Shown piece by piece: positions 28,382 through 54,290 of a stretch of 64,000 bases of DNA (the stretch's first letter is position 1; each line of letters begins with the position of its first letter). A program made the translations under genes and the position numbers. The notes under the pieces are model-generated. The model was not told where the DNA came from. It searched no databases and worked only from the letters and a program-made list of their open reading frames with translations. Source of the stretch: Fragilaria crotonensis. Taxonomy: Eukaryota > Bacillariophyta > Fragilariophyceae > Fragilariales > Fragilariaceae. The stretch lies in contig JAKSYS010000020.1 in assembly GCA_022925895.1 (NCBI GenBank), forward strand, positions 165,958 through 229,957, in the 5' to 3' direction.

Positions 28382-31300
28382 ATGAAGCTCCCCTGCTATG
28401 CCCTCCCAAGCTGTGCCTCTAAGTCCATCCGGACGTTCCTTGTCGCAACCTTACTCCTCGTTTCAGCCGCAACTTCAATTCACTTTGGTCAAGTCAATGC
28501 TTCTACGAACAGCGTTCGCGAGTATCGCAAATCGACGGTCCAAAATGTAGGTACACATGGAAAGAATTACGCAGCGGTTTATCCTTTTCTCCAGCTCTCT
28601 CATCTATCCATCACATGCCGGAGCAGACTTCAGGCACAAGTTTCTTTGATGACGTTGATGGAATCAGAACTTCATTCCACCGTTCCTTCAACGACGACGA
28701 TCGCGACACCATGAATGTTGAATCCTCAATTAGCGCTTTCTTCGAAGAATGTTCTGCATCGTGCACTGCACCGCACGAACGTCGTATGTCGAACTCCTGC
28801 TGTCGCGGCGGACTTTCCTCACTAAAGCTCACCTATCACGGCCCGAATGGAAGTCTTTTGGTGCCAGACGACCCATCTCTCAAGGCGCTGATCAAGATCG
28901 ATCCCTGTAATGAGTACAGGCGACTTTCCGGCGGAGCAAATGAAGCACCGGATTCGATTCGTTTCGCAAGTTGCGATCGCTGTTTTCCGGCATCCAACGA
29001 CGATTGTGATATTACTCTCGACGTCGCTACGGTTCAAGATGTATCGTCGGGTGATATGATATGCCTCGTTCGAGTCGACGATGTATCTAATCACATCCTT
29101 CCAAACACCAAGTTTCCTTCGATCATGGACCTGTACTTCGTTGTTCCAGAAGACGACGATTTTGTGGTGGCTACCAGCATTCGCACCTCATGCTCCAGCG
29201 CAATCTACGCGCCATTTGGTGTGCGCGTTGGACAGTGCTCCGATAATTCCGACTTTTATGTCACTGATTTGTCCACCACATCACTTGCCGAAGGAGAGTC
29301 TGTGCTGGAATTTGTTGATGGAAGCAGCTCGTGTCATTCGGAGACGTCCTTCTCTGACTGTTTTGCCACAACGCCGAGCTCGCCTTCACATCCAAGCGCG
29401 GATGACTCATGTTGCGAAGGAGGCGCGAGCTTCATCAAGGTCCGTTTGATAGGTGGACAAGACATCGCAGGTTTCCTCACCATCGACTCCGAAATAGTGG
29501 CGTCGTCGATGGATTGCGATGACTTGGCCTTCGGCAGCCTCGGTCGTGTCAACAGCAGAAAGACCAATTCCTCCTCACGAGTTCGTTTCGTCGACTGCAG
29601 TGACGAGTGCCTTCTCCAAGGTTTCGATGTGGATTGTACAACAGTCAAAACTTCGATCGATGGAATTGGGACCGGAGTAGAGTTTTGCGTTGTGTCTTTT
29701 CACGATGGTGCAGTTTCGTTGGCGGAGAGGCTACCGACGACTTTTGGCCTTTGGTTCATTCCAGAGTCCAACGCTATTGTTCATTCTTTGCTGATGCATT
29801 CTTCGTGTAGCAAACCCTTCCTTGGTTACGGACAAACTTTCGGTTTCGAATGCGACGGCTCGGACTCTACTAGTGTGGACATTTCTCAGGAGCAACCTGA
29901 TGAAAACTTGATCTTTGTCGAATTCGTTGATGGCTTCAGTGATGGATACTTCAAGGCACGTCAAAAATTGGATAAGTCGGCTAGTTCGTTTGACATCTCG
30001 TTCTCTGGGTGCGGCTGTGCCTGTGAACAAGTAGGGGCTCCAAGCCCCCCTAACGGTGATGCACCTTTCTTGCTCAGTGCCAGTCCTTCAGGAGTCTCAT
30101 CACCCCCGAGCAAATTTCCAAATAGCAAGACGTCAACGTTGCCATCAGAGCATTCCGATTCCACCCCGTTTGGAAGCATGCCTCCCCATGTCAAGAATTC
30201 GGATTCTCCTGTCGCGTCGAAAATGCCGCTGGGTCCGCGCATTCCTGGGCGCGGGAAGAAAGCCGCGACACCGGGCGCATTCCCAGAGCGCCCAAGCCGC
30301 CCTCCCTCCTTGGTGCCCTCAGTCATGAACATTGCCACTAGCACTTCTCCTTCCAACGAGCCCACGAATCCTCGCCGGCCTGGACCTGGTCGTGGGAAAA
30401 AGGCCACTACCCCGAATGAATCTCTTGAACGCCCAAGTTTGATGCCCTTCGCCGAGAAAGGCACCCCAAGCGCTTCTCCTTCCTTTGAGTCCACAAGTCC
30501 GCGCCGACCTGGACCTGGTCGTGGAAAGAAGGCCACCACACCAAGCGAATCATTGGAGCGCCTGAGCTACCATCCTTCATTGATGCCTTCCGCTAAGAAT
30601 GACATAACATCCAATTCTCCTTCTTATGAACCCACTGGTCAGCGTCGGCCTGGATTTGGTCGTGGTAAAAAGAGCGTGACGCCGAATCACACTCTCGAAC
30701 GCTCTAGTCGCCGTCCTTCGTTGATGCCCTTTCCCACCAAAGGCTTCCCGAGCGCTTCTCCGTCCTATGTATCCACTCAACCGCGCCAGCCTGGACCTGG
30801 CCGTGGGAAAAAGGCCACCACGCCGAATGAGCCTCTAGAACGTCCAAGCCGCCGTCGTTCCTTTATGCCTTCGACCATTAAAGATGTCGCAAGCTCATCC
30901 CCTTCCTACGAGTCCACAAGTCCCCACCGGCCAGGGACTGGTCACGGAAAGAAGGTCTCCACGCCGCGTCCTTCTGTGAAGCCCTCCGCACTCGTAGTTC
31001 CACATCCCTGTCCAGCCAAAACGCCTCCCCCGCTCGAAGTCGATTCCTTTAATCCTTCATCGGCGGAACCCACATCACAAGTCGTGCCCAGTTCCAGTCA
31101 AGCCAGGACGTCGTTTCCAACCGATGTGCTATCACTTCACCCAACTACTCCTCCATCCCTCGAGCCCACAGCCCACCGTAACCCCGGGCCAAGGCCAGTG
31201 CCTGGAAAGACAGCCTCACCAAACGCATTGCTACCCACGAACCCAAGCAGCCCAGCGATCACCCCCCCTCCAGTTCAAATCAGGACTTCGTCTCCGTCCC

Positions 31301-32685
31301 TGGAGCCCACAACCCCACGCAACCCCGGACCACGGCCATGGCCTGCAGTGACGTCATCACCTAACGCATCACATCCTCCTCGCCCGAGTAATTCAACGTA
31401 CGCTCCCAATCCAGTGCTAGTCAGGACGTCATCTCCGGCCGACGGTCGCCCAACAAGTCCTCCATCCCTCGAACCCACAACTCCACGCAACCCCGGACCA
31501 AGGCCAGGGGCTGGCAAGACAGCATCACCGAACGCATGGCGTCCTCCTCGTCCGAGTAATTCAACGAGCACTCCCAATCCAGTTCAAATCATTACGTCGT
31601 CTCCAGCCAACGGTCGCCGGACAATTCCTCCATCCCTCGAGCCCACAACCCCACGCAACCACGGACCAGGGCCTTGGCCTGCAGTGACGTCTTCACCTAA
31701 CGCATTGCGTCCTCCTCGTCCGAGTAATTCAACGAACACTCCCAATCCATTTCAGAAAAGGACTTCGTCTCCAACCGGAGTTCGCCCAACAAGTCCTCCC
31801 TCCCTCGAGCCCACAACCCCACGCAACCCCGGACCACGGCCATGGCCTGCAGTGACGTCTTCGCCTAACGCATCACGTCCTCCTCGCCCGAGTAATTCAA
31901 CGTACGCTCCCAATCCAGTGCTAGTCAGGACGTCATCTCCGGCCGACGGTCGCCCAACAAGTCCTCCATCCCTTGAGCCCACAACTCCACGCAACCCCGG
32001 ACCAAGGCCAGGGGCTGGCAAGACAGCATCACCGAACGCATGGCGTCCTCCTCGTCCGAGTAATTCAACGAAGACTCCCAATCCAGTTCAAATCATTACG
32101 TCGTCTCCAGCCAACGGTCGCCGGACAATTCCTCCATCCCTCGAGCCCACAACCCCACGCAACCCCGGAACAGGGCCTTGGCCTGCGGTGACGTCTTCAC
32201 CTAACGCGTTGCGTCCTCCTCGTCCGAGTAATTCAACGAACACTACCAATCCATTTCAGAAAAGGACTTCGTCTCCGGCAGACAGTCGCCCAACAAGTCC
32301 TCCATCCCTCGAGCCCACTACCCAGCGCAACCCTGGACCAAGGCCAGGTCCTGGAACGACGCCTTTGCCAAGTGCTTTATTTCCTTCTCTTCCAACCAAG
32401 CCCTCCGTCGAATTTACCCCATTACCTAGTCTTCATCCATCGGTCCCTATCATGCCTTCCTCTCTTCCGGGTCCCATCGACTGCAACATCCTGTGTGAAC
32501 AGTGGGTGCTTGAAAATTGCGTCGTGGTAGGCGACGATGGAGAGCCCTTGCCAGGTTTTCCCTGCGATGTATCATCTTCGATTAATGTCGATGGTGGCCG
32601 CCGCTTAGGCAACGTCGACGCAGACATTGCCTTCCACGAGAACATGATTGCTATGTACTCTCGCCTGCTTCGCTCTATTCAATAG
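28382..32685 (+). CDS. Giant secreted Pro/Ser/Thr-rich repeat protein (cell-wall or mucilage type)
   Basis: Two exons, 28382-28546 and 28627-32685, flank an 80-bp phase-0 intron (GTAGGT...GCAG), giving about 1,407 residues. Exon 1 supplies a signal peptide (FLVATLLLVSAATS). Two related Cys-rich domains follow, beginning SCCRGGLSSLKL and SCCEGGASFIKV (about residues 108-250 and 315-470), each with paired Cys and a FVDC/FASC motif. Next come about five ~45-residue units with a GRGKKATTP-type basic motif, then six 56-residue mucin-like units starting SLEPTTPRNPG. A short Cys-containing tail (CNILCEQW) ends it. It should be exported and heavily O-glycosylated; a role in the frustule, adhesion or mucilage is inferred from composition only. 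No named family is recognised with certainty. The frame stays open through all repeats, so the gene appears to be under selection. Confidence 0.85.
30230..30960 (+). repeat. Tandem ~43-48-codon repeats with GRGKK motif
   Basis: Inside the giant repeat gene, about five units contain RRPGPGRGKKATTP or a variant, followed by xLERPS, SLMPS and SPSYES segments. Each unit has one Lys-Lys pair in an otherwise Pro/Ser/Thr-rich context. Unit length varies by a few codons, always in frame. Confidence 0.8.
31297..32304 (+). repeat. Higher-order repeat: six 168-bp monomers in two 504-bp units
   Basis: Six 56-codon monomers start at 31297, 31465, 31633, 31801, 31969 and 32137, each beginning SLEPTTPRN. 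They fall into types A (AVTSSPNAS...VLVRTSS), B (GAGKTASPNAW...VQIITSS) and C (AVTSSPNAL...FQKRTSS) in the order A-B-C-A-B-C. The second triplet is far more like the first than neighbouring monomers are like each other. This shows a duplication of the whole 504-bp triplet after the monomers had diverged. Confidence 0.92.
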
Positions 32686-39429: not shown

Positions 39430-41573
39430 TTGCGAGGTCGGACAGCATCAATTTGTTGCTCAACTGTTCTAAACCTTGGGAAGGATAATCCAAGGGTGGT
39501 GGCAGTGCCCCCCTCAAAGAAGCGGCTCAGCAACAAGATGCCACGAAAGCAAGCAAGAAGGAATTACTTTCCTTCAGGTCCCCCGGAAGTGTTGGCACTG
39601 CTAGTACTGAATTTCTTCCCCCTAGATGGGAGGGATGTTTTTCCCCGTTCTGGCTGATTTTGCAATTGCGTTTTGTTCCGCAGCTTTGACTGGAACTATG
39701 GATGGCAAGGTCAAGGTATGTGGCACGCCCTTAAGATGGATATCGTACTACTATGCGGTTAGTTGTTCGATCTGTAAGGACCTTCGGCTCGCTGACAAGG
39801 AAATGGAGGAAGCCGGTGACAAAGTTACTGATTGTTGCAGTGCCATCACACAGTTGTGCTCAATCGGCCACCATGTTGAAATACCTTTCGGAATTCATTC
39901 TCATGGATTTGATATGTAACCAAAGGATTACTCTGATGGCAGCCGCAACCTTCAATATATGTAGTGTTATTAAAACTGGTGATGCAGACACCACTCATGG
40001 GGTTACTGCTGGTGTTGTTGCGTTGGGACATGACATTGTTATGGCGCCTGCAAGTGGACCTCAGGATCTTGACAATGTCAATGACAACAAGTACAGATTT
40101 CTCCTTGCTTTTCTGCCGGGGGCGGGAGTGTTTCATGCGCAAGGGACTGGTGCAGGAAGACTGCTGAGGGTGTTGAAGGTTCACGCATTGCTCTGGACGT
40201 GAGTTGGTTTTGACTAAGGAATACGTCATTGCAGCTTCCATCAGTGTCAGACTTCCAATTACAATTTGGAGAGGATGAATATGTGAAGAGATTTGCTTCC
40301 ATTACATGTGCTGGGGTTTCTGCCTGGAAAGTTTCGTACTTTTCTGTAGCGCCAAGGTTACTGCGCGGAGTGTTCACGTCAACACAATGTGCAGATCATG
40401 ATGGCCCTCGGATGCCACCAGACATTATTGCTGATCACGATGTGGGTGTTTGGCCAGTTGCTAACCGTGTGCAAGAACACACTCGCTGCCATGTTAACTC
40501 AAATTCAACGAGGGTGCTGGGTTGTCAACATTGCGCCCCGGGATGCTCGCACCTGAAAATCCGGGACTCTTGTTGGACGATTGACCCGCTGGAACACCAC
40601 CCATTCATTGACATCATTGTTGACATTGCCCCTATTTGTTCTGGCACAGCTGTGAGAAGTATTCTTGATAGCTCCCACGAGTCAAGATATTGCCATATGG
40701 ACGGGCATGTCCTACTTGCTTCCCTCGAAGTGATCGGCGAACACAATTCTTGCCTTCGGAGAGAAGCAGCGGTTGGCATACCGGGGATGTTGGTACCATG
40801 CATGCACCAATTGGGACCCGTGTTCTGTTGGATGGAATGATGACAGCTGTCGGGTTTGCCGCAAACAATAAGATGCCTCAGCCTGTACTGAGGAGCTTTG
40901 TCGAGGCATTTGCCACTGTTGGCATCCTCTACTGTTTTCCTGGTGTACTTTCTGTTGTTCAAAACGTGGAAGCTGATTCGTCCCTTGTGCCAATAGCTCT
41001 GATGGATGGAAATTGTAATGGCCTCCGGGCTGGGTACACAATTGACGTAAGCATTGACCTGCTGGGAAACGCGTCACACTTCGGTCAATGCGAATGATGC
41101 TTCACAGGGATTTGGTCTATGGACAGAGGAGAAGCCGGGTTGTGGATGAAGCTGGTACCATACTTTTGTCTGCTTCCAAATTGTAGGAGGGCAACAAGAG
41201 GAGGAGATGTGGTGCAAATTACTAATGCATTGCCATAAAGCTTTCTCATGCAAATGCCATAAGCTGGGATGGCCGTGCACTGAGACACTGCATGTCCGTG
41301 TCTCGGCCAGATGGTGAAGGTGCTGGTTGGACAGGTGTGAATCACTTATTTGGCACTTTCACTGCGGCAAAGGAGAAGATTGTAGCAGCTGGCCGTGCTT
41401 GTGCACCTGGAAGTCTGTGCCTAGAAGTGGCTGCGGCCTGTAATGAGGAGGCTGGTGTGCAGCGTCAATTTGAAGAGCAGATGGTTTACGTTGGGTCGAC
41501 GGAGGAGGGAACCCGCATTGTCAAAGTGACAGGCGAGATGCCCGAAGACGAAACGAATTCTCAGACGAAGTAA
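39430..41573 (+). pseudogene. Degraded unknown ORF, frames broken
   Basis: Plus-strand fragments in changing frames look coding: 39430-39657 (SKKRLSNKMPRKQARRN), 40700-41095 (MHAPIGTRVLLDGMMTAVGF, GYTIDVSIDLLGNASHF), about 41090-41160 (DASQGFGLWTEEKPG) and 41250-41573 (AISWDGRALRHCMSVSRPDG, HLFGTFTAAKEKIV), ending at a TAA. The last two read as parts of one conserved protein, with the join broken near 41090-41250. The family is not recognised. Its place beside repeats and a large transposon suggests an element-borne gene. It lies just outside the transposon and could belong to it or be separate. Confidence 0.5.
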
Positions 41574-42248
41574 ATTTGTTGAATTGGATTTGGAAGAATT
41601 GCCTATTTCATGTTCCATCTCTGTTGGAAAGCAAAGGGGACACAACCAACGAAGTTGCCTCAGTCTCTAATAGTGAATAATAGGATGGAACAATTTTAGT
41701 GTCCATAACGGCTATATGCATCTTGTTGCAGAATTGATGAAGGTAACGAGGTGCTGGAAATAGGTTCATGCAATTGGTTTAGTTTGTCAGCTGAACACAA
41801 TGGTACTGTATACATCTAAAAAGCAAAACCTGAATTCGTGTCACATATCCCTATTTTTTGCATGGATTTATACGAATTAAATTACGCATAGATCCGTACA
41901 AAATAATGCCACATTATTGCTCACGTACTAGTTTTTTTTTCGTTTTCCGTACTATTGTATGCACATGTTCCGAAGTTTAGAATTCGGAATCCAACAAATA
42001 CATTTTTGATACATCCGAGTTCTAATTGATCGATTCCGGTAAAATTTAGAATACGGAATCCTGGTTCGTTTTTTACAAAACAACTTAATCTAATCATCCA
42101 TACTCCTGAGCTTTTGTCTAGCGCATACCTGATTTTGCATTTCATATTGCATGACTTAGCACTGCCTAATTATGTTGTATGGTAATGTAAATTTATGAGT
42201 TAGTGCGTGATTCATATCTGCATCTTAAATTATAGTAAACTAATCACA

Positions 42249-43819
42249 TTAAATAGGCACAATGCAATCTGGATTTTCATTTGTACACACGGTGTCAACA
42301 CATCCCATATCATCTCGTGGCATCGCTTTGCGCTTACAGTTGTTTGCCCGGCGCGGATTTGGTTTTACAACACGTTGACGTTCCAAAAACACATTGAGCA
42401 ATTGATTATTAAACATCACTCCATGCAACATTCGGTCTTCCTTCACTGAATCGTAAAGATCATTAAACTTATTCATGCCATCTTCAGTCCATCCAATTCC
42501 AGCCACACCATTTGTATCGTTGCGTTGTTTTCGTGACAATGTATATTTTGGTGCCTGTATTCAGAACTCGTGTTAGCATCTTTGCACGCTTGCGTAATTG
42601 TTGTGCAACCATCAAAAACTTACCACAGTAACAAGAACCGGAACAGCAACAGCACTAACATGTGCTTGAATCTGTGACAAAGTATCGGACATATTTTAAG
42701 CAATGTGTCAGCATTTCAATCAAACCAAATCAAAACATTGCACTGTATTGTCATACCTTTGATTGTTCCAATGCCAATTCAGACATCCATGTCGCTGTGT
42801 AATTAAGTAAAACAAGAAGCATGAAAGCTTCGTCGCTTAGCAAAAACACATACTCATTGAAAACCCCAGAATCTGAACGACAATAACTCATCATGTTAGC
42901 CTTGTCATTCCAATTACTGTGTCCAACAATGCAAGGCGCATAGATATCAATTAAATGCACATAATGAACCAAATTGTCTCGCATTGCTAACATGTAGTCC
43001 ATATCGGCATTCTGACCATGGTTAACTTTGAAGTGCGGAATCTTACCACACATGCCATCTGATTTGTGACAATAAAACAAACGTTAGTCATTTGCTTGCA
43101 CTCGAGAAATTAATATCATTTCACTTACCTCTGAATCTTAAGCGCATGTTTTTGATGACATTGTTGCGACGATCTGTGTGAGAACAAACAACAAGTTTAC
43201 GCATGTCTGCCCACCAGTATTCATCAACGTCTTCTTTCGCCACATTGCAATTAGCAACAATCATCGAACAAACCGTGCCATGTCGTAAATCATATAAACC
43301 ATGCAAGTCCTTTTTTAAAAATTTGAGACGACTGAACAACTTTGTCTTAACACACTCTTTCACCATCATACGTTGCGATGCAATTGTATTTTGTAGCTGC
43401 ATGTTAAGCGGAAGGAGATTAGGAGGAACAATTGCAACATGTTCGGGCATTGACGCACGCTCTGTTACTCTGCCTTCTAGCATTGCTGGCATAGGAGAAT
43501 AACCGCTTATGATGGGCGTTACTTGTTGTTGTGGTTGGTGATATACTTTTTGATCACTTTGCACGACATCGGCAACTGCGCGATGATTGCGACCTGACAT
43601 ATAAAACATGTTTGTGGTGAGAATTGGAGGTAGCTCATCATCCAAAACGGATGATGGGTCCAGTTGACCGCGATGATGCACTCCGTTCATCTTTAGCAAA
43701 TATGTCGAATGTTTGTATTTTGCAATTTGTGTTTTATGAACTCATAGTAAGCGCACTGCACGTTTTTTTAATTTTACGATTAACGCAAACGCATTCAAAC
43801 GTTGATCATTGAGCTTCAT
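42249..43819 (-). CDS. Transposon accessory protein, five exons, function unknown
   Basis: Exons in coding order are 43819-43757, 43690-43129, 43058-42757, 42671-42624 and 42554-42249, giving 426 residues. The introns are 66, 70, 85 and 69 bp; all have GT-AG ends and all phases fit, so the model is coherent. No frameshift is needed. The protein has a Pro/Gln-rich N-terminal part and a central segment rich in charged and aromatic residues (DVDEYWWADMRK, RNNVIKNMRLRFRDG). A compact region with conserved-looking YVFLLSDEAFMLLVLLNYTA follows. The tail contains GIGWTEDGMNKFNDLYDSV and a basic patch, which may bind DNA or the transposase. No domain family is recognised. Exon 1 is the least certain; translation might begin at the Met at 43690. 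Confidence 0.6.
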
Positions 43820-44723
43820 GAAGAAAAATGTTGGGTGCCAACATGTGGTTTGACGCATGTATGAATGTAAAAGTAAACACCTGTTAATTTTCAAACAAAC
43901 TTTACTACTTAGGATTCGTTTGAAAATCAAACTTAGAGTGCGTGCCGCGCATTATTTATTTTTGAATGTCGTTTCCCGCATTAAATACGTCAATAATAAA
44001 TTGATGGCACTGTTTAAAGGGACCCTGCCAGTTAATGCACCACAAAACCTGCGTTTGTGTGAAGGTGGCATCAACCTTCTCGGGACTTAATCCGTTAAAT
44101 CGATGTTAAAAAGACGTTAAACAACCGTTATAAGTCGAACACAATTTTGGTACACAACTCCATCCAGTGTCAGATCCTCAAGTGAACTGACACACTTCTG
44201 TGCACTCTTTTCTCAATTCTTCACCAAATTTGTTTCTGTAAGTAACATCCCATCCTCTTATGTCATGAGATGAATCTGTGAGAGTTTTGGCTTTGAAGAT
44301 GACAAGGTTGTTGTTCTTTTTGAATGGATGAGATCAGGGAATTTTTGTGTGTTGCCGCAGGGTAACCCGGATGTACAAAAACTCTACTTCCACGCGTTTT
44401 CTACAGCATCGTTGTACCAGGACTGTTGTTTTTGTACAGTGAGTACTTACTGGTAGTACGCGCCAAACTCACGTGGCTTCTACTGCATGGTGGTAGGAGC
44501 ACTGTGTACGCACTTTCTTCTTTGACAGTAGGTACTCTTTTTCACCGTACTTGCTCCACTGATCAAGATCTTGCCATTGTGCCACCAAAACTCAACTGCT
44601 TTGCTGCATCACAATCGAAATAAGGAATTTACTCACTCCAATTTTGATCTGTTGCGTCAGTTTTACATTCAGCAACTTCAGCAGGCAAGCATTGTCATCG
44701 TAATTGATTGAGAATATTGTTCA

Positions 44724-45152
44724 GTTGCTGCATCAGCTCAAGTTTTGTGTGTGGACATCAGTCACCTGCAAGGATCTTGCTCGAAAGAGTAGTGTGCCTA
44801 CACGTCGTGCCTTACTGGTAAAGCCCACATTACTTGGTTGGTGCAGTAGTCCTTTTGTTAAGCAAAGGACCGTTCAAGAAATTGGACGTCTGATACATTG
44901 TTGTTGATTGATTTGGAGGGCATTGTGCTGTTTGGCCACAATTGTTGCAAGGACGCAATTATTGTTCCTGTCATTCCTTGCTTCTCTCTGTTGCTGCACC
45001 AGCTCGAGTTTTGTGTGTGGACATCAGTCACCTGCGAGGATCTTGCTCGAAAGAGTAGTGTGCCTACACGTCGTGCCTTACTGGTAAAGCCCTCATTACT
45101 TGGTTGGTGCAGTAGTCCTTTTGTTAAGCAAAGGACCGTTCAAGCCATTGGG
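44724..45152 (+). repeat. ~160-bp direct duplication, period 267 bp
   Basis: Copies at about 44724-44885 and 44991-45152 are ~95% identical, from TTGCTGCAYCAGCTC to AAGGACCGTTCAAG. Both have an open frame (SVPTRRALLVKP, LGWCSSPFVKQRTVQ), but differences are mostly replacing rather than silent, so coding is not supported. The pair lies directly before the polyprotein gene and may be its 5' region or a subterminal repeat of the transposon. Confidence 0.7.
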
Positions 45153-45206
45153 CGTCATTGAAGTTTGTAACGTCTGATTGAGATCATACAATTGTAATTC
45201 TTTATC

Positions 45207-48200
45207 ATGAGTGGAAAAGATTTGACGAGTGAAATGCTCCGTGAAGTCAAAAGTGAAGCTGATTCGCGGCGGCATCAGAAACAGTCACCAATGCTGAGAC
45301 AACACTCATGATTGGTACAATGGAAAACCGTGATAGTTTGAATTCATCGTCATCAGAGGCAAATGTCAGAGCTGAGACAAGCCGAATTCTTCCTGGTGAA
45401 TTGGATAGCGGTGATGCAGATTTGGCAGCTTCCGCATTGGCCTTGTCAAATCTTGCAAGTGCCGATCCCATGCAAGGACTTGAGGTTATGGCCAAGGCCG
45501 CTGGTAAGGCAGTACCTCACAAAGCTTCAACTCCTGAGGTTATCAACAAACTTATTGAAGGAGACGTTGATGTTGTGGTTCCTGTTCCAAGCACCCCCAC
45601 AAAAGTTTCAACATTAGCTTCGGTGTATACGTTTGACGGAATTAATGAGTTGGCTGGACAACTTAATCATGGACAGAAGCGCGGCATAATTGCTGCGTAT
45701 ATCCGTGGGTTGGAGGTTGGCTTTGTGGAACAGAACTTACCTCCATTCCGTAATTGGTTCAAAGACTTTCGGTTTGCGGAGGCTATATTCAAGCCTGGAG
45801 ACATTGGCAATAAAATGTGGCATTTTCGCCATGTTCTCTTGGGGCCGCAATGTGTGGAAAACATTTCTTTCGGTACAGCTCCAAAGAATTTCTTAACTTG
45901 CGCTCGACAATTTTACACCGAGATTTTCCATCCCTCTCCGTCAATGGAAGAACAAATTGATCGGGCCATGAAACAAGATATCACAATCATGATTCTAGCT
46001 CTTCGGGTTGGCAAAAAGGGTGTTCTTCCAAAATCCCTGACGCCATATGTCACGTCCCTGATCACAGTGTCAGCTGTTACTTTTCAATTGCATCGCGATC
46101 CAAACGATCATGGAGCAATGTCGGTATTTGTGTCTTTCTTGGGAGTGACGCACCATTTGACAGCACATCCACCTTCGATAACGTCGTGGCGCCGCAATGG
46201 AGTGGGTTTGTTTATGATGGTACAAGTTATTAAACGGTGTGCATCCATTACGGATGTCAAGACAATTGAGGTGTTCCTTCAATGTTCAGAACCATCAGCA
46301 TTTCACTTCTACACAATGATTGGTTTTCGTCAGTTGAACAAAAATGAAGCCGATGACGGGTTCAAAATGCTTCCTTTGCATTTGCAAACAGCATTGGAAT
46401 CCCAAAACCCATCATCCTTTTTGCGCTCAACAAATGAATCAAAGCCCCCAATTCTTTTGCATTTGCGCCATGGTGAATTGAAGTACATCAATTCTGCAAA
46501 TGCCGCCAACGACAAGAAAGATGATGAAGTCACAGTCAATGTTGCTCCAAGGACACAACCATTCTGGTGCCAGTATCCACCTCCACTTTTGATTGGTGGT
46601 GGAAGATTCGTTTACGATCAAAAAGATGCGGACAATCTATTTATTTCACTACCGCTTTTGCGCAAACTCTTTCCTGGTCCACTTGAGCCGTTGTTGCCTG
46701 CCAATTCTCTGCTTCTGAAAGGCGAAATGACGCTGGTCCGTCGCAAGCAGCATAGTGAGTTGGAAGGAACGAATTGGTTTTCGAGTGGTGAGATAAACTT
46801 GATGCTTTCGATTTTGACATGTGATGGAAGATATGAAGATGCAACTTTCATTTTGTCTGTTTATTTTGAAGCGTCTTGAAGAAAGGTTTTGCGGCGCACG
46901 CATCTTACAAAGCCCTCCTTCAATTGGAAAAAGACAATGCATCAATGGATGAAAAGGAACTCGAAGCCTTGGTCCAAAAGATTTTGGGAACAGGTTCGAA
47001 ACAGATTAAACGTACACAACAAGTTCAGCAAGACTATGTGGTGCATGAAATCATCGAAAGAAATCCCGGATTGCTTTCGAAACAGGTATTAGTGTTCCCT
47101 CAAAATGAGGATGGTGAGCACTGGAGTGTTACTTTCGTCTTCAATCCAGGATACATTCGTGACAACGTTGAAGACATTGAGAATGCAGAAAATTCTCCAA
47201 AACCATTTTTCTTTCGATACTGCAGCAAACATCCCTTTGGGACGCGCGATGTGTCCATTGATACAGGCATCATTTGGTTCCTGAACTTGTCATACAGCAC
47301 CAAAATTTACCAAGAAAGCATGCCTACGGAAGGTGCGGCTATGAGATGGTGTTCCCCGTTTGGAAAAACGTCGCAAGGCAATATGCTTGGAACCAAAAGC
47401 TTTCCGGCGTTACGTCTCCCAGAAGCAAATTTGCTTCCACGACAAGAGGATGGATGGAACTGTGGAGTGGGAATTGTTGCTGCTGTCGCTATTATATTGC
47501 GAAATGTTTGCAACAAAAAAGTGGAACGTATGACTTTCAACGAGCAATTTGGTCCTCAGAAGAATTGGGAGCTACACCAGGATGACATGACAAAAGAGTG
47601 GTTTGCCTACTTCGACAGAACATTTTTTGAACCACTCCCAACGGAGAACAACGACTTGATATTGGCAGATTATCTTACTATGCTTCGCCAAGAATGGTTT
47701 GTTCTCTTTGATCGGATGGCTGCTATGCAGTATGAGGTGTTTCCAAAACGAGTGAACAAGAACAATTTGGTCAATCCGTTATACTTGGAAACAAAACAGA
47801 GTACACTTGCTTGGCCCGATTTTGACACAATGAAAAAGTGCCAGACATTGTCCAAAGCAAAACTTCGCTTACTGCGTAAACAAATTGATGAAGAGAAAAA
47901 GGAAAGACAGCAAGCTTCAGCTCAAGGTATTTCATCTGCAATTGATGTTTCTCAAAGCCCAGACAGAAACATTACTGTTGATTTATCTTCACCAGCAGAA
48001 AAAGCAGATACGGCTCTTGATTTATCATCACCAGCAAAGAGAGGGGCTGGTGTATCCATGAATCTGGATGAAAATGTGACAATCAATTTAATGTCGCCAG
48101 ATGCAAAAGCCTCTGCTGGATTGAGGGAAACTGTTGATGACAATGAAATCAATTTAATGTCGCTAGAGACAGAGCCTCTGATGCTGCTGCAACACAGGTT

Positions 48201-50030
48201 GCTTCACAATCAAATGAAACTGCAAGAGCCTCTGCTGATGAATTGACAATAATCAATCCTGATACTATTGTTGCAGACATCAAAATCGAAGACACACCAA
48301 CAAAAGAAGACAAGTCGGCAGACAAAGAACCAGGGTACAAAATCAAGAAGATTGAGGATCCTTCAAAACTTGGACCCATCAAGCTTCACATTCGAACCCC
48401 CACAAAGAAGCGCAAAGATGGCGACTTGTTGAAACGATTGCATCTTGATGATGTTCTGTTTGAAGATGACGATGTGGCACCTCAACGAAAGAAAGGAAGA
48501 CTCAAAAAACGATCGACAACTACGATTGGGGCCTTCTATCACAAATACCATGCCACAGCCACCGCTGAAGATACAATTGTCACTATCGACAAAGGTTTTA
48601 AAGCGGAACTTTCAAAATTTATTGCAGAAAGTTTTGAAAAGTGGAACTGGTCAAGTGAAAAGGATCACCAGAAGACGATTGAGTTTTGGGCAAAGCAAAT
48701 GAAAGCCCGAGATTGCTCCGAATCCAAGAAAGAATACATCCGTGAGTTGATTAAAGGCATCAAGAATGAACGAGCTCAGTTTACGAAAGAGTTGACAAAT
48801 GAGTTCATGTTTACTCGCCTTACAATGGTTAAGGGGCTCCGCTTTGAAAAAGCGAACAACAGCTTTTATGCTCGCTTGGTTTATCAAGAACCAAGCAAAT
48901 CAGATCCGAAAACAATGGTGGTCTCTGAAGAAGAACTAAAAGTCGATGAAGAATGGGTTCAAAGCGAATATGCAGATGTGGACATTCAACACATTATCAA
49001 CATGCATCAAACGGACAAGTGGACTGACGTTCCACGCGATGTTGAAGTCAGAATTGCCAAACATAAAATTGTTCGTGTGCGATATGTGCCTCCCCAAGTT
49101 CGCCATGTGATTGATTATGAAGCAACAAAGAAGGTCATAAATGAGAAGGATGTAACGAATGCCAAGAGGCGAAAGAAGCTTGGATTTGCTGACCTTCCAG
49201 CGGAGCAAATCGAAAAGCTTTCTCTCTTGGAACAGACAATTCCCAGACGCCGAACGTCACAGCAAAGTGCACCACCCACCCCTTCTAAGGTTGCCAGAAA
49301 TCCAATGAATGTCAAGAAATATGAGAAGATACGTCTTGAAAAGGAGGAGGCAAAATGGCAAAAGGCAGTTATTCGAAAGCCCGTCACTACAAATGAGAAA
49401 TGGTTAGGTCGGATGGAAAATAATAAGGAGACAACGTTGGAGGAAGAGTTTGTGACAATGGCATTTGGTGAACCGTTTGTGAAGGAATTGAAGATGGGGG
49501 ATCTGCGTGGGTTCGTGGATGTGCCCGTTGGTGATTACAAACCATCACACTTGCACCACCATCCAAACTTGCAATGTTATGGTGCGCCTGCTGTCCACTT
49601 CAATCAAACTGATGGAAAAGATTTGTGTGTGTCGAAGGCCCTTGCTTCAGCTTTGTTTTCGCTTGGTTTTCGGGAGGAGGCATCTACCATTGACAATTTT
49701 GGTGAAGAAATTTTAAAAGGGGCAGTTGTCGATGCTTTGGAAAATGTTGTGAAACATGCAAGAAGCATTCTTCCGACTTGGATAGTGATTCGGCGTTTGC
49801 CTCGACAATTCGATTGGAGAGTTGATCTCGATGCACGAAACCTCTTGCTTGGAGTTCTGACTGCATCGGACGGTAGCTGTTGTCATGCCGTTTGCATTCA
49901 TGGAGGATTTGTGTATGATGCGAATGAGGTGAAAGCCCTCCCTCTTTGCGAAGAGGCTTTGAATTATTGTACCTCTACTCCATTGGTGAAGAGTGAGTTT
50001 GTTGGATTCCGGCGGGGTTACATCTTTTGA
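45207..50030 (+). pseudogene. Transposon polyprotein: GNAT-like, Ulp1/C48 peptidase, papain/OTU-like domain; three frameshifts
   Basis: One gene of about 1,600 codons is read in three frames: from ATG 45207 to about 45264, to 46876, to about 48170, and then to the stop at 50028-50030. Each change is a loss of one base and no other stop interrupts. The break at 46876 lies inside a Ulp1-type domain: its entry motif NWFSSGEIN is before the break, and His (GEHWSV, 47119) and Cys (RQEDGWNCGVG, 47461) are after it. The two parts must therefore be one protein. Upstream, 45950-46350 has GNAT features (SWRRNGVGLFM as motif A, FYTMIGF as motif B). A Ser/Asp-rich linker repeats NLMSP and DLSSPA. The C-terminal ~150 residues hold a second candidate Cys-His-Asn triad (LCVSKALASAL, CCHAVCIHG, VYDANE) of papain/OTU-like order. 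Peptidase activity and role in transposition are inferred. Confidence 0.75.
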
Positions 50031-50126
50031 TATGAAGGACAGCGACAACAGAGGATTGAAAAAATGACATGGAGGACAGAAATGAATTGAAACCTTATAC
50101 ATGAATTAAGTATAACATTTATTTTA

Positions 50127-52972
50127 TTATGACCCTGTTTTGAGATGGCATTTGCTTGACTCGTCCACAGGTTCAGTAAATTCGGATGCCCACAAATGGC
50201 GAGGCAAAGTTTGCAAAATTTTTGAGCCATCATCCTTAATCAAAATAGCAAAGCAGGGACCTTCTATATCAGAAGGTTCAATAACGGTATAATCATCGGA
50301 CATTAACCATTCGGTCAGAAGCACTGATTTGATGCCAGTTGTGTGTAAGCCTTTTTGGACAACCAATCGGATGGGTTGCAGATTGTTGGTAAGAACAACC
50401 ACAGTTAAACGGCACGGATGCACCGAGACTCTGTTGGACGTTTGGGATTTGAAGTTTACATTCATCCAATCATAAACAGGACCCCCAGATTGGAATGATG
50501 GATGGCATCGATACGTGGATGAGTTGTGCCTCAGCTCCGTGCACACATGCACCTTTGAACCAAATTGGTAACTCAAGAACTGCAATACAGTATCGGGAAT
50601 GTGCATCAATGATACATTGGTTTGAGTATGCCAACACAGCCGATATCCAGTTGTGAAGTCACATGTCAGAGTTCCAAAAGTGGCTTTGCCAGTGCTGCTC
50701 GGAGGATTGGTGTTGTCAGGAACGTTAGCGGCACCATTTGTGGTGTCCCATATTCTGGTATAGACTGCATTAATCATCAGTGAATAAGACAAGCGTTGCG
50801 CAGATTGTAGTTCGTAAGCAGATCCATTGTGACGTTTTTGTGCTCGGCGGCCAGGCTTTTTGGCAACTGGAATTAACAGTGATTCTGGACGTTGAGCACA
50901 ATAATTGATTGGAGCACCAAACCGTTCCATATTGTCGAGTAAATGCAACAATTCGTGAAACTTCGGAAACTTCCACGATTTATTTTTGGACAGTGGAATG
51001 TCAGTCACACACATGGACATTAACGTTTTGATGGCATTCTGAACAACAATTTTGGATTCTGCATGATGCTGCGGGGTCCAGTATGAGGTTTTATTGAGCC
51101 ATTGATCAAAACATAACATTGCCTCAAAGACAGAAATCACAGCAGGAAGGTTGGCAGCTTCTTCTGCTGCAGCGTTCTTATCAGCACTTTGTGCTCTTGC
51201 TCGCCGCATTTCAAACGTGGATTCTAAAATCAGCCATCCTTCATCATATTGTGCCAAAATTACAAACAAAAATACCAAACCCAAACGTTCCGCTGCTGAA
51301 ATTTTGGTCAAATTTGTGATACCTTGGCTAAAATCCGTTGCAGGAAACGTTCGGCGAATTGTTTGTCGGTGAGTATTGTGAAACCGAATTGCAAGGGCGT
51401 CCAACGCCGCCAACTGGCTGGGAGGGACATTTTCAAGAATCAAGAACGTGACCATTTCGATCATGCCTTTACGAAATGCATGCATGGTTTCAACCGGTGT
51501 TGCACCATATATTCCACGAATTGGGTCGGCCATTGGAATGCTATCAAAGACATTATTCAAACGATGTTGTGACCATCGTTTTCGAGTTGCCACGTTGGGA
51601 TCACGCGCAATGGCTGAAATGTCTTGGGCTGAAAGCATAGAACATTGGACCTCAGGATTATCCAAATTTTCATGATCAACATCACACGCACGACTATGTC
51701 GTTGAATGCCTGCTCCGTGTGACCCAAATCGACCACACAACATGTCACCTTCTTGCATGTCTTGAATGACATAAAGAATACAAGTGATGACATCCACTTG
51801 CATGATTCCCTGTGGACCAATTGGCAATGATACATTCATTAAATAGGGACCGGCCGAAGTAAATGAACTCAACACTGCATCCAACTGGGCATGATAGTTC
51901 CGCACATTGTCACCTTGTTTCATGTTAGTTTGATTTTGTGCGGATGATAATTTTGCTTTTGGGAGGAAGCCATGATATCCCCAGGCCTGGAGCTTACGAC
52001 GAAACTCCTCTTTAAAAATAGCAGGCGCGAACATGTATGGTTTCAGTGAAAATCGGGCATTACCTGTCACATGTGTGCGGTCAATCCATTGGATAATGGG
52101 AACAAATAATTGTCGTGCCGGATTCGTTATCATTCGTTGATATGCATCGCGATACACACTCCCAGAAAGCGCATCCCCAAGTCTTCCATCAGGGCTCTGA
52201 TATGGTTTCAAGGGATTGTTCAAATCAATCAATAGATTTTCAGAAGTCATGATGGACGGGTTTTGCAACAAGTTAAGTAATTGCGGTGCAAATTCATAAG
52301 CGATGACATCGCACGGTGGTCCGTGCGGCACCTCCACAGTGACAACCGCAGGTAACAGCCTCTTTGCGTTTGTCACAGATTGAAACAGAACATCCACATT
52401 TTTTAATCGCGATTGCCCACCGACGGGATAAAATGAGTACCCATCTGCTTGGGCATGTCTGGCCCATTTTAGGACCGATTCAAACGCATAATCAGGCGCA
52501 TTCATGTCATCCAATATCTTTAACAATGAAATGGTCCATTTTTGATCCGTAGAAAACATAAATTGTGATGCGGCAACTGTATCATGACGTGTTGGACATT
52601 CAGGTATATCATTGGGTTTGTCCACAAGAATTTGAATGTCATTTATATCATCAAACGGTGATTCCGTCATATGAATGACGGGTGGCAACAATGCTGGCAG
52701 TGCGTTCAACGACGATGGAGCTGAACTATTGTACAAGTCATTTACCACTTCGCAACGCAAATGCTTGGGACGTTTGGTACTTGTAAAGACGCTTTCATCA
52801 AAGTTGCGTCAACGCGACATTGCGCAACGGGTGTTGTGGTTGTTGAATGGCCGCAACGGAGAAAAGCTAAACATGTCGGTGACCGCTGAAAATGGATTGT
52901 GAATGCCTTTTCTGTTGTGAACAGTTTGTGACGGCTCATGCAATGCGGGTTGTAACATACAAATCCTGACAT
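50127..52972 (-). pseudogene. DDE transposase, CMC/Plavaka-like, with N-terminal C2H2 finger; one frameshift
   Basis: About 948 codons. The frame starting at ATG 52972 encodes a C2H2-type finger (CYNPHC...FTIHFQRSPTC) and is linked to the main 877-codon frame by one missing base in TTT near 52800. The main part carries three candidate catalytic acids: Asp in IIQWIDRTHVTGNARFSLKP, Asp in YVIQDMQEGDMLCGRFG, and Glu in IYGATPVETMHAFRKGM. A Cys/His cluster (CDVDHE...VQC) lies between the last two. The N-terminal finger and the order D-D-E with WIDRTH match Plavaka-type transposases of the CMC superfamily as I know them. Beyond the one shift the frame is open throughout, so the copy may be young or even active. 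No intron is needed. Confidence 0.78.
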
Positions 52973-54290
52973 GTTTTGAGAGTGATTGAGAATTGTTTAT
53001 GTTGTGAGGGATAATAAACGTGGTGTTTGCGTCACTGCGTGTTTGCAAGTGGGTGTGTCATCAAACGGCTGCTTTCACAACACTGGCTTACAATATCAAC
53101 ATAAATTCATGGACAACCAATGAAAACTGGTCATGCATACTGACTACTGACAAACAGGGATGACGTGTTTGAGCGCACACATAAGGAAGAAACACAAATC
53201 TCATTTATCCGTATTGACTTCAGAAATACCAACTCAAATGTCAATCCGAATCCTTAGACGTGATTTGGTACTGATTAGTATATAGGTTGAGAAACACGTA
53301 GAACGATTAATTTGAATTAATAGACAAACACGTATATTAACGTGTACGGATGTATGAGCTTGTGGAAAAATATGGAAACAAAATTGTGGTTATGTACTAA
53401 AATTGGCTAAATATCTACCTTTTTAAGTTTGTACGAACTTGAGCATTCGTAAGTACTGCATTATTTCGATTTTTGGCCCTTAGATGTACCACAGTAAGGT
53501 GCGTAGACTACTGTATGCATCAGGTTCAGTTGATACAAATGTATCACCCACAATGGTCAATTTGAAGTTGTAAGTTAAAAGCAGAAGAAGCACAACGCAA
53601 ATAATGACCACAGTAGAAGAGTGATGATAAATACCATATTAGCACAATTAGACTTGGAGCTACAAGTGATTGAAATGAAATGACGGAGAAAGAGGTCATG
53701 AGCAAGGTTGGCCATTCTTCATTCTTGATTTTGGCTACAATACGGTGTACCATATCATCTGGTGTGGAGAGAGGATGTGGCAGGCAACAAAATGTGATTT
53801 AGTAAAAATTTACGTGATATAGTAATTCTTTCTGAACAAATGTATAATTGGTGATATAGTAAGATGCATGTAGTAAGGTTATATGTAGAGGGCCATTGTA
53901 TACTATATTGAAAAGTGGCTGAAAAATACACAATTTTGTAACTTCCCCTTTACATATAGATAGAGGGAGAGAGTGCATAATCAGTTTAAGCTTGGAAGAT
54001 TGTAAAAACTGCACTTGGTCGGTTTTTATCTTCTTCAGGCCAGCACAATGGACCCAATAGCAAGTGAACCTCTGCCAGGCAAAGACCCAATCTCCAAGGG
54101 CAACTGCTGAGGAAGAAGCTAACCTCAGCACCTCAGTCAGCAGGACAGACAAGAGAGATTCTTGTATCAATGCTTGCTTTGGAGCCACTGTAGCAAAGCA
54201 TTGTTGCTGTGTCATGTCTGCAGGAGCAAACACCTGCTTTCATCTGCATTAAACATCATTTAGGAGAATTTAGGCTTGCACACTCGAAAA
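52973..54290. other. Region without recognised gene
   Basis: AT-rich sequence beside the transposase. The right end of the large transposon should lie here. A small inverted motif (CACGTATATTAACGTG) is at about 53329-53344. ORFs such as 53799-54233 (-) have no recognisable features and partly run opposite the mariner relic. Confidence 0.45.

Follow-up and report, generated by a model that had tools for sequence, protein, structure and literature searches.

A Plavaka-group transposon of the diatom Fragilaria crotonensis whose large protein combines GNAT and two peptidase-like parts

A 64,000-nucleotide stretch of the Fragilaria crotonensis genome (contig JAKSYS010000020.1, positions 165,958 to 229,957; hereafter the window, with its own numbering) contains a block of three coding units: a spliced accessory gene, a gene for a large protein with acetyltransferase-like and peptidase-like parts, and a transposase gene. 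Is this block a single transposon, and what would a transposon do with such a large protein? An earlier note, written from the sequence of the window, had proposed one giant DNA transposon of the CMC/Plavaka type. We found that the three genes form a bounded, mobile unit with exact ends and a 2-bp target-site duplication, and that they move together.

Limits and insertion site

The window was compared by BLASTN with ten further copies in a genome of 62.1 Mb in 881 contigs (the published assembly of F. crotonensis SAG 28.96, for which nanopore and Illumina data were processed with Canu and Pilon, comprises 879 contigs and 61.85 Mb; PMC9476933). The left end could be read in seven of these copies and the right end in ten, and the boundaries agree with the abrupt ends listed in Table 1. 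The transposon is 11,674 bp long, which is not giant. It extends beyond the limits first proposed for it, 42249 and 52972, which are the stop of the accessory gene and the start of the transposase, respectively.

The 26-bp left end has 10 exact matches in the genome, the window included, and its reversed control has none. These ten ends represent the subfamily of the window element, within a wider family. The terminal inverted repeat of the window element is CATCTAA/TTAGATG, and the copy designated C361 has a perfect one of 19 bp. Both flanks were read in 12 copies (the window, C106, C147, C620, C474, C200, C527, C874, C140, C728, C5, and C361), and nine have a 2-bp duplication, which is expected by chance in about 1 in 16 per copy. 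The duplicated bases are TA in the window, C106, C147, and C361, AT in C474, CA in C874, TT in C140, GA in C728, and AA in C5; no 2-bp duplication is present in C620, C200, and C527. The contigs of C674 and C202 lack the left end, and the left flank of C339 is omitted from the count. The search for further copies advised in the earlier note supplied the ends, the inverted repeats, and the target duplication.

A query consisting of the window flanks joined by a single TA gave 31 genomic matches, of which 19 cross the junction, and C520 and C614 match it over its full length. In the alignment of four empty sites, the junction reads GTACTGTATA and then CCA. Because these paralogous empty sites run straight across the junction, the window corresponds to the element plus one additional TA.

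Table 1. Features of the transposon in the window.
Feature	Position	Strand	Basis
Whole transposon	41813–53486		Identical sharp boundaries where other contigs hold a copy; paralogous empty sites
Left target-site duplication, TA	41811–41812		Flank reading and empty-site alignment
Right target-site duplication, TA	53487–53488		Flank reading and empty-site alignment
Left terminal inverted repeat, CATCTAA	41813–41819	+	End reading in copies; exact 26-bp left-end matches
Right terminal inverted repeat, TTAGATG	53480–53486	−	End reading in copies
Accessory exon 1, start ATG at 43690	43129–43690	−	GT-AG introns and 405-residue frame; conserved in relatives
Accessory exon 2	42757–43058	−	Gene model; matches in other copies
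Accessory exon 3	42624–42671	−	Gene model
Accessory exon 4, stop at 42249	42249–42554	−	Gene model; matches in other copies
Gene of the large protein with GNAT, Ulp1-like, and papain-like parts; reading frame interrupted in the window copy	45207–50030	+	Open reading frames; single frame in relative P0019
GNAT part, RRNGVG and FYTMIGF motifs	46184–46384	+	Pfam PF13673 match
Ulp1-like (CE-clan) peptidase part; candidate codons start at 47119 (His), 47284 (Asn), 47443 (Gln), 47461 (Cys)	46870–47724	+	Residue pattern, alignment
Papain-like C-terminal peptidase part; candidate codons start at 49626 (Cys), 49884 (His), 49917 (Asp), 49923 (Asn)	49563–50027	+	Alignment, fold search
Plavaka transposase gene, with a zinc-finger-like motif at the N terminus; the window copy has its frame break near 52808	50127–52972	−	Pfam, open reading frame, alignment
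First catalytic Asp candidate, WIDRT (D243)	52080–52082	−	37/37 rows
Second catalytic Asp candidate, QDM (D350)	51759–51761	−	37/37 rows
Catalytic Glu candidate, ISAAE (E507)	51288–51290	−	37/37 rows; role by analogy

Gene linkage and gene orders

Matches to the element proteins were grouped across the genome when they lay within 10 kb, with one judged row per locus, which gave 87 clusters. The accessory gene, the GNAT piece, the C-terminal piece, and the transposase occur together in 28 of them. The window order (accessory on the minus strand, large protein on the plus strand, transposase on the minus strand) is found in 21 of these, and a second order (large protein plus, transposase minus, accessory plus) in seven. 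Six further clusters, in which no GNAT piece was detected, have the second order in five cases and the first in one. In C361:123300-135183, which has the second order, the accessory gene adjoins the transposase, there is a TA duplication, and both ends lie outside all genes; its far end was absent from the first 3 kb examined and was located in the next 5 kb.

In this count, a GNAT piece is any match to the 538-residue first piece of the large protein, the C-terminal rows are those of one search plus one added (C5), and 71 of 96 accessory rows were used; the 25 omitted were the weakest and include second pieces of loci already in the count. The transposase rows comprise matches to the window protein and some matches to the Plavaka profile PF18759, and the large protein is represented in the count by its GNAT and C-terminal pieces.

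Single-component clusters make up 21 of the 87 (16 accessory, three C-terminal piece, one transposase, and one GNAT piece), as a nest of separate elements in place of one transposon might produce. We consider a nest scarcely credible. The ends lie outside all genes, and C106, C147, C620, C474, and C200 align collinearly with the window between the two ends of the element, save two stretches that are missing in the window, of ~720 bp at 44013/44020 and ~80 bp at 48507/48513. In the paralogous empty sites, the two flanks are contiguous; this refutes the nest reading for the window copy and, together with the common ends, led to its rejection. The earlier note had named single-gene copies or ends between the genes as evidence against its proposal of one transposon; single-component clusters do occur, and the proposal stands, with a large protein part in 50 of the 52 clusters that have a transposase.

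The element itself lies within another repeat family. Relatives of its flanks (41563-41812 and 53489-53738) were seen on C28, C40, C22, C165, C361, and C873, where they form inverted pairs ~6 kb apart that enclose a match to the C48 peptidase family. Therefore, the element seems to have been inserted into a member of another transposon-like family, one that has a Ulp1-type gene. Genome-wide, there are at least 44 C48 peptidase matches.

The transposase

The transposase matches PF18759 with 46.9 bits against a cut-off of 26.3, which by Pfam makes it a member of the Plavaka group, and the ends of the element are partly PlavakaB-like. The genome has at least 80 PF18759 matches and at least 79 matches to the window transposase; these are lower bounds, the second from 51 of 636 candidates scored. 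Among the 120 of 144 matches listed in a protein search, one is labelled F. crotonensis, and a comparison of the transposase alignment with PDB profiles gave no match. Some PF18759 matches cover no more of the profile than positions ~39-170; this second group, which suggests that the genome has a further transposase clade, was left out of the cluster count.

In the window, the N-terminal finger is out of frame with the 893-residue open frame, while the open frame of C147 has 967 residues. The finger is not the classical C2H2 type first supposed but has the pattern C-x4-C...H...C.

The two aspartates proposed in the earlier note as catalytic, those of WIDRTH and VIQDMQ, are found in all 37 rows of the alignment. 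The glutamate it placed third, E440 of PVETMH, is replaced by Asp in 4 of the 37 rows, whereas E507 of ISAAE is invariant. Invariance alone cannot fix the third catalytic residue, because E353, D428, E562, and E642 are equally invariant. RAG1 shares the residue order D-D-(C2C)-(H..H)-E. The account of the CMCT clade, to which Plavaka belongs, gives this order for the clade (PMC12730594), and E507 is preferred because it follows the His pair, as in the CMCT order. By this analogy, the third catalytic residue is probably E507, not E440. Plavaka has C(2)C and H(3-4)H between the second Asp and the last Glu. In this interval, C375 is found in 37/37 rows and its partner C372, for which the window has Ser, in 25/37. 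H477 and H480 are separated by two residues, compared with the Plavaka spacing of H(3-4)H.

The large protein

In the window copy, the reading frame of the large protein gene is broken in three places. The gene falls into open frames of 538, 458, and 627 residues (45263-46879, 46870-48246, and 48147-50030, respectively), and its start ATG is not in frame with the first. In C874, the first two pieces and part of the third form a single frame of 1,132 residues, and the relative P0019, on an ENA contig, has every part in a single intact frame of 1,638 residues, with the domains separated by long variable linkers. Thus, the frames are less nearly intact than the earlier note had stated, with these three breaks, one more in the transposase, and the two missing stretches. 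NCBIfam gave no match for three proteins. Upstream of the large protein start, there is an imperfect direct repeat of ~170 bp (44721-44890 and 44987-45156) that is matched in other copies.

With the Pfam profile PF13673, whose cut-off is 23.6 bits, the GNAT part scores 25.7 in the window and 24.5 in C874. It is below the cut-off in C140 (21.6), P0018, P0019, P0020, P0021, and P0024, and no GNAT match was found in the C728 piece L029:4682-5911 or in P0023, which begins downstream of this part. The acetyl-CoA motif of GNAT acetyltransferases is Q/RxxGxG/A. RxxGxG/A is present in the window and in 7 of the 11 rows of alignment A3; the other four rows begin after the motif.

The catalytic residues of Ulp1 (C48) peptidases come in the order His, Asp or Asn, Gln, Cys. 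In the central part, the candidates H84, N139, Q192, and C198, with Asn replacing Asp, are invariant in all 11 aligned rows. The C48 Pfam profile reaches at best 14.2 bits, in C140, below the cut-off of 20.7, with 12.1 in P0021 and 10.5 in P0023, and the Pfam scans gave no C48 match in the window, C874, P0018, P0019, P0020, or P0024. Profile and fold searches weakly suggest that this part is CE-clan, or Ulp1-like. In the C-terminal part, the C-H-D/N candidates are likewise invariant in 11/11 aligned rows, and fold searches give moderate support for a papain-like peptidase in the wide sense. The C-terminal alignment matched only two PDB profiles, with E values of 0.73 and 1.7 and unrelated names. 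The earlier note had called this part papain- or OTU-like. The Pfam scans gave no OTU match, and there is no OTU row among the fold matches listed, which excludes nothing. Thus, of the composition it proposed, the GNAT part, the Ulp1-type pattern, and the papain-like C terminus are retained, but not OTU specifically.

The modest Pfam and fold scores could also mean that neither the GNAT part nor the peptidase parts have enzyme activity and that they serve as scaffolds, which bind host factors for the transposase. Against this, the catalytic candidates are invariant in every row of both peptidase alignments, and RxxGxG/A is kept in each row that covers it, so we think that inactive scaffolds are rather improbable.

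Could the element be derived from a virus? CE-clan peptidases are common in DNA viruses, and one piece of C728 has a Pox_A6 match of 15.4 bits, below the cut-off of 21. However, no capsid, polymerase, or packaging gene was found above the Pfam cut-off in the open reading frames scanned, scans of viral contigs found no relative of the large protein, and the sole transposase relative on a viral contig is accompanied by a second transposase. A virophage, Polinton-like, or giant-virus fragment is therefore very improbable, and the viral-contig scans of the large protein and the transposase leave a viral origin unsupported. That contig, IMGVR_UViG_3300049043_000356, filed as viral, has a Plavaka transposase, a CATCTAA stretch, and an adjoining DDE_Tnp_1_7 (IS4/piggyBac-type) transposase; it is perhaps a eukaryotic repeat contig.

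The accessory gene and selection

The accessory gene, for which five exons had been proposed, has four coding exons joined by three GT-AG introns into one frame of 405 residues. A fifth exon was not found, and the ~720 bp absent from the window, read in C147, holds no clear exon. The gene is matched in 11 of 13 other elements examined, C339 and C202 being without it. The spliced protein has no Pfam match at E up to 1; it may be an uncharacterised partner of the other element proteins.

Selection was measured as the Nei-Gojobori ratio of nonsynonymous to synonymous divergence (dN/dS) between the window and individual copies. The values for the transposase, the C-terminal piece, the Ulp1 piece, and the GNAT piece are 0.10, 0.105, 0.14, and 0.20 against C140, and 0.21, 0.16, 0.26, and 0.24 against C106; accessory exons 1 and 2 give 0.27 and 0.22 against C106. 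Unsaturated values range from 0.07 to 0.57, all below 1, and the highest, for the transposase, comes from the comparison with C874, which is partly deleted. Values printed as 0.000 reflect saturated dS and were excluded. Saturation affects the accessory comparisons with C140 and those with C728 and C5, except for accessory exon 1 against C5 (0.35) and exon 2 against C728 (0.18). Overlapping matches inflate some ratios, and the C-terminal value for C147 (0.51, 967 codons for a 627-residue query) was excluded. From these sequence comparisons, all parts of the element appear to have been kept under constraint.

Proposed function of the large protein

What is the role of the large protein in transposition? 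By analogy with the family, the element would move by DDE cut and paste: the transposase, with its zinc finger, would bind and cut the CATCTAA ends and insert the element with a 2-bp stagger. In the weaker step of the mechanism, the large protein would act in trans to edit modifications on host or element proteins. The CE-clan/Ulp1-like part may remove SUMO-like tags, the papain-like part may remove ubiquitin-like tags, and the GNAT part may acetylate a protein of chromatin or repair; silencing of the element, or degradation of the transposase, would be relieved. We consider it somewhat probable that the block is one cut-and-paste Plavaka-group transposon whose large protein is such a trans-acting editor.

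The single 1,638-residue frame and its long variable linkers are also what a true polyprotein might have, in which the peptidase parts process the large protein itself and free the acetyltransferase and DNA- or chromatin-binding pieces. CE-clan peptidases do act as processing enzymes as well. However, one account discusses the Ulp1 and OTU domains found in other transposons as acting on ubiquitin or SUMO (PMC2836005), and we regard self-processing as unlikely.

If the large protein is instead an editor acting in trans, a transposon would hold in one polypeptide the means to alter host regulation at three levels (acetyl, SUMO, and ubiquitin), a parallel to the TET/JBP gene found in certain fungal Plavaka elements. 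The gene set is kept in both orders in the one genome, and related proteins occur on public contigs. A bolder proposal, which we put forward tentatively, is that this diatom Plavaka family removes or rewrites host marks with a single acetyltransferase-deSUMOylase-deubiquitinase protein, so as to lift silencing, and is a candidate for a general counter-silencing module of algal transposons. The parts of the element are defined and can be tested in a diatom that grows in culture; the two gene orders and deleted copies such as C339 and C874 are natural comparisons for action in cis or in trans.

Relation to known elements

In the CMCT account, PlavakaB has the ends CATCA..TGATG and a target duplication of 2 or 3 bp (Kojima 2025, PMC12730594). 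The diatom element resembles it in its PF18759 transposase, CATC...GATG ends, and 2-bp duplication, and differs at the fifth terminal base, so that four of five bases agree. TET/JBP accessory genes of fungal transposons, some Plavaka elements included, are interpreted there as possible anti-silencing tools (PMC12730594); the diatom element likewise has an accessory gene, and Pfam scans of its open reading frames gave no TET/JBP match. Unlike the Plavaka elements of that account, it has a diatom host, a large protein with GNAT and two peptidase-like parts, and an accessory gene with introns (PMC12730594). Plavaka is also named in a green alga in earlier literature.

Peptidases are known from other eukaryotic DNA transposons. 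The 16 rows of the Ginger1 table (Table 1 of PMC2836005) have OTU or Ulp1, with one given as NA, C-terminal to an integrase-like transposase, and these parts are suggested to link transposition with the ubiquitin pathway; unlike the diatom element, no row of that table lists both peptidases or GNAT. The oomycete CryptonF and CryptonS elements, as described in PMC3212892, also carry a C48 peptidase in a stramenopile transposon, as a separate protein in some CryptonS, but have one peptidase and a tyrosine recombinase instead of a DDE transposase. The giant repeats of Amoebidium similarly link a protist Plavaka transposase with other genes but are tandem gene clusters of up to 50 kb, with many of the genes tyrosine recombinases, and no comparable large protein is seen in the available part of that account (PMC11244446).

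The layout of GNAT and two peptidases in one protein had been thought undescribed, and no description was found among the open-access papers listed, a coverage with Repbase and most subscription papers outside it. The results support a Plavaka DNA transposon with such a protein. What is new is a diatom variant of Plavaka that carries an unusual and conserved enzyme protein, for which we propose the function above.

Other observations

Rfam gave no match in the window, and Pfam gave none for five open reading frames flanking the element. Elsewhere in the window, an open frame of 1,420 residues at 28423-32685 has long repeats rich in Pro, Ser, and Thr. The genome has at least 19 silicon-transporter matches, three of which lie within an open frame of 1,456 residues at C97:29749-33762.

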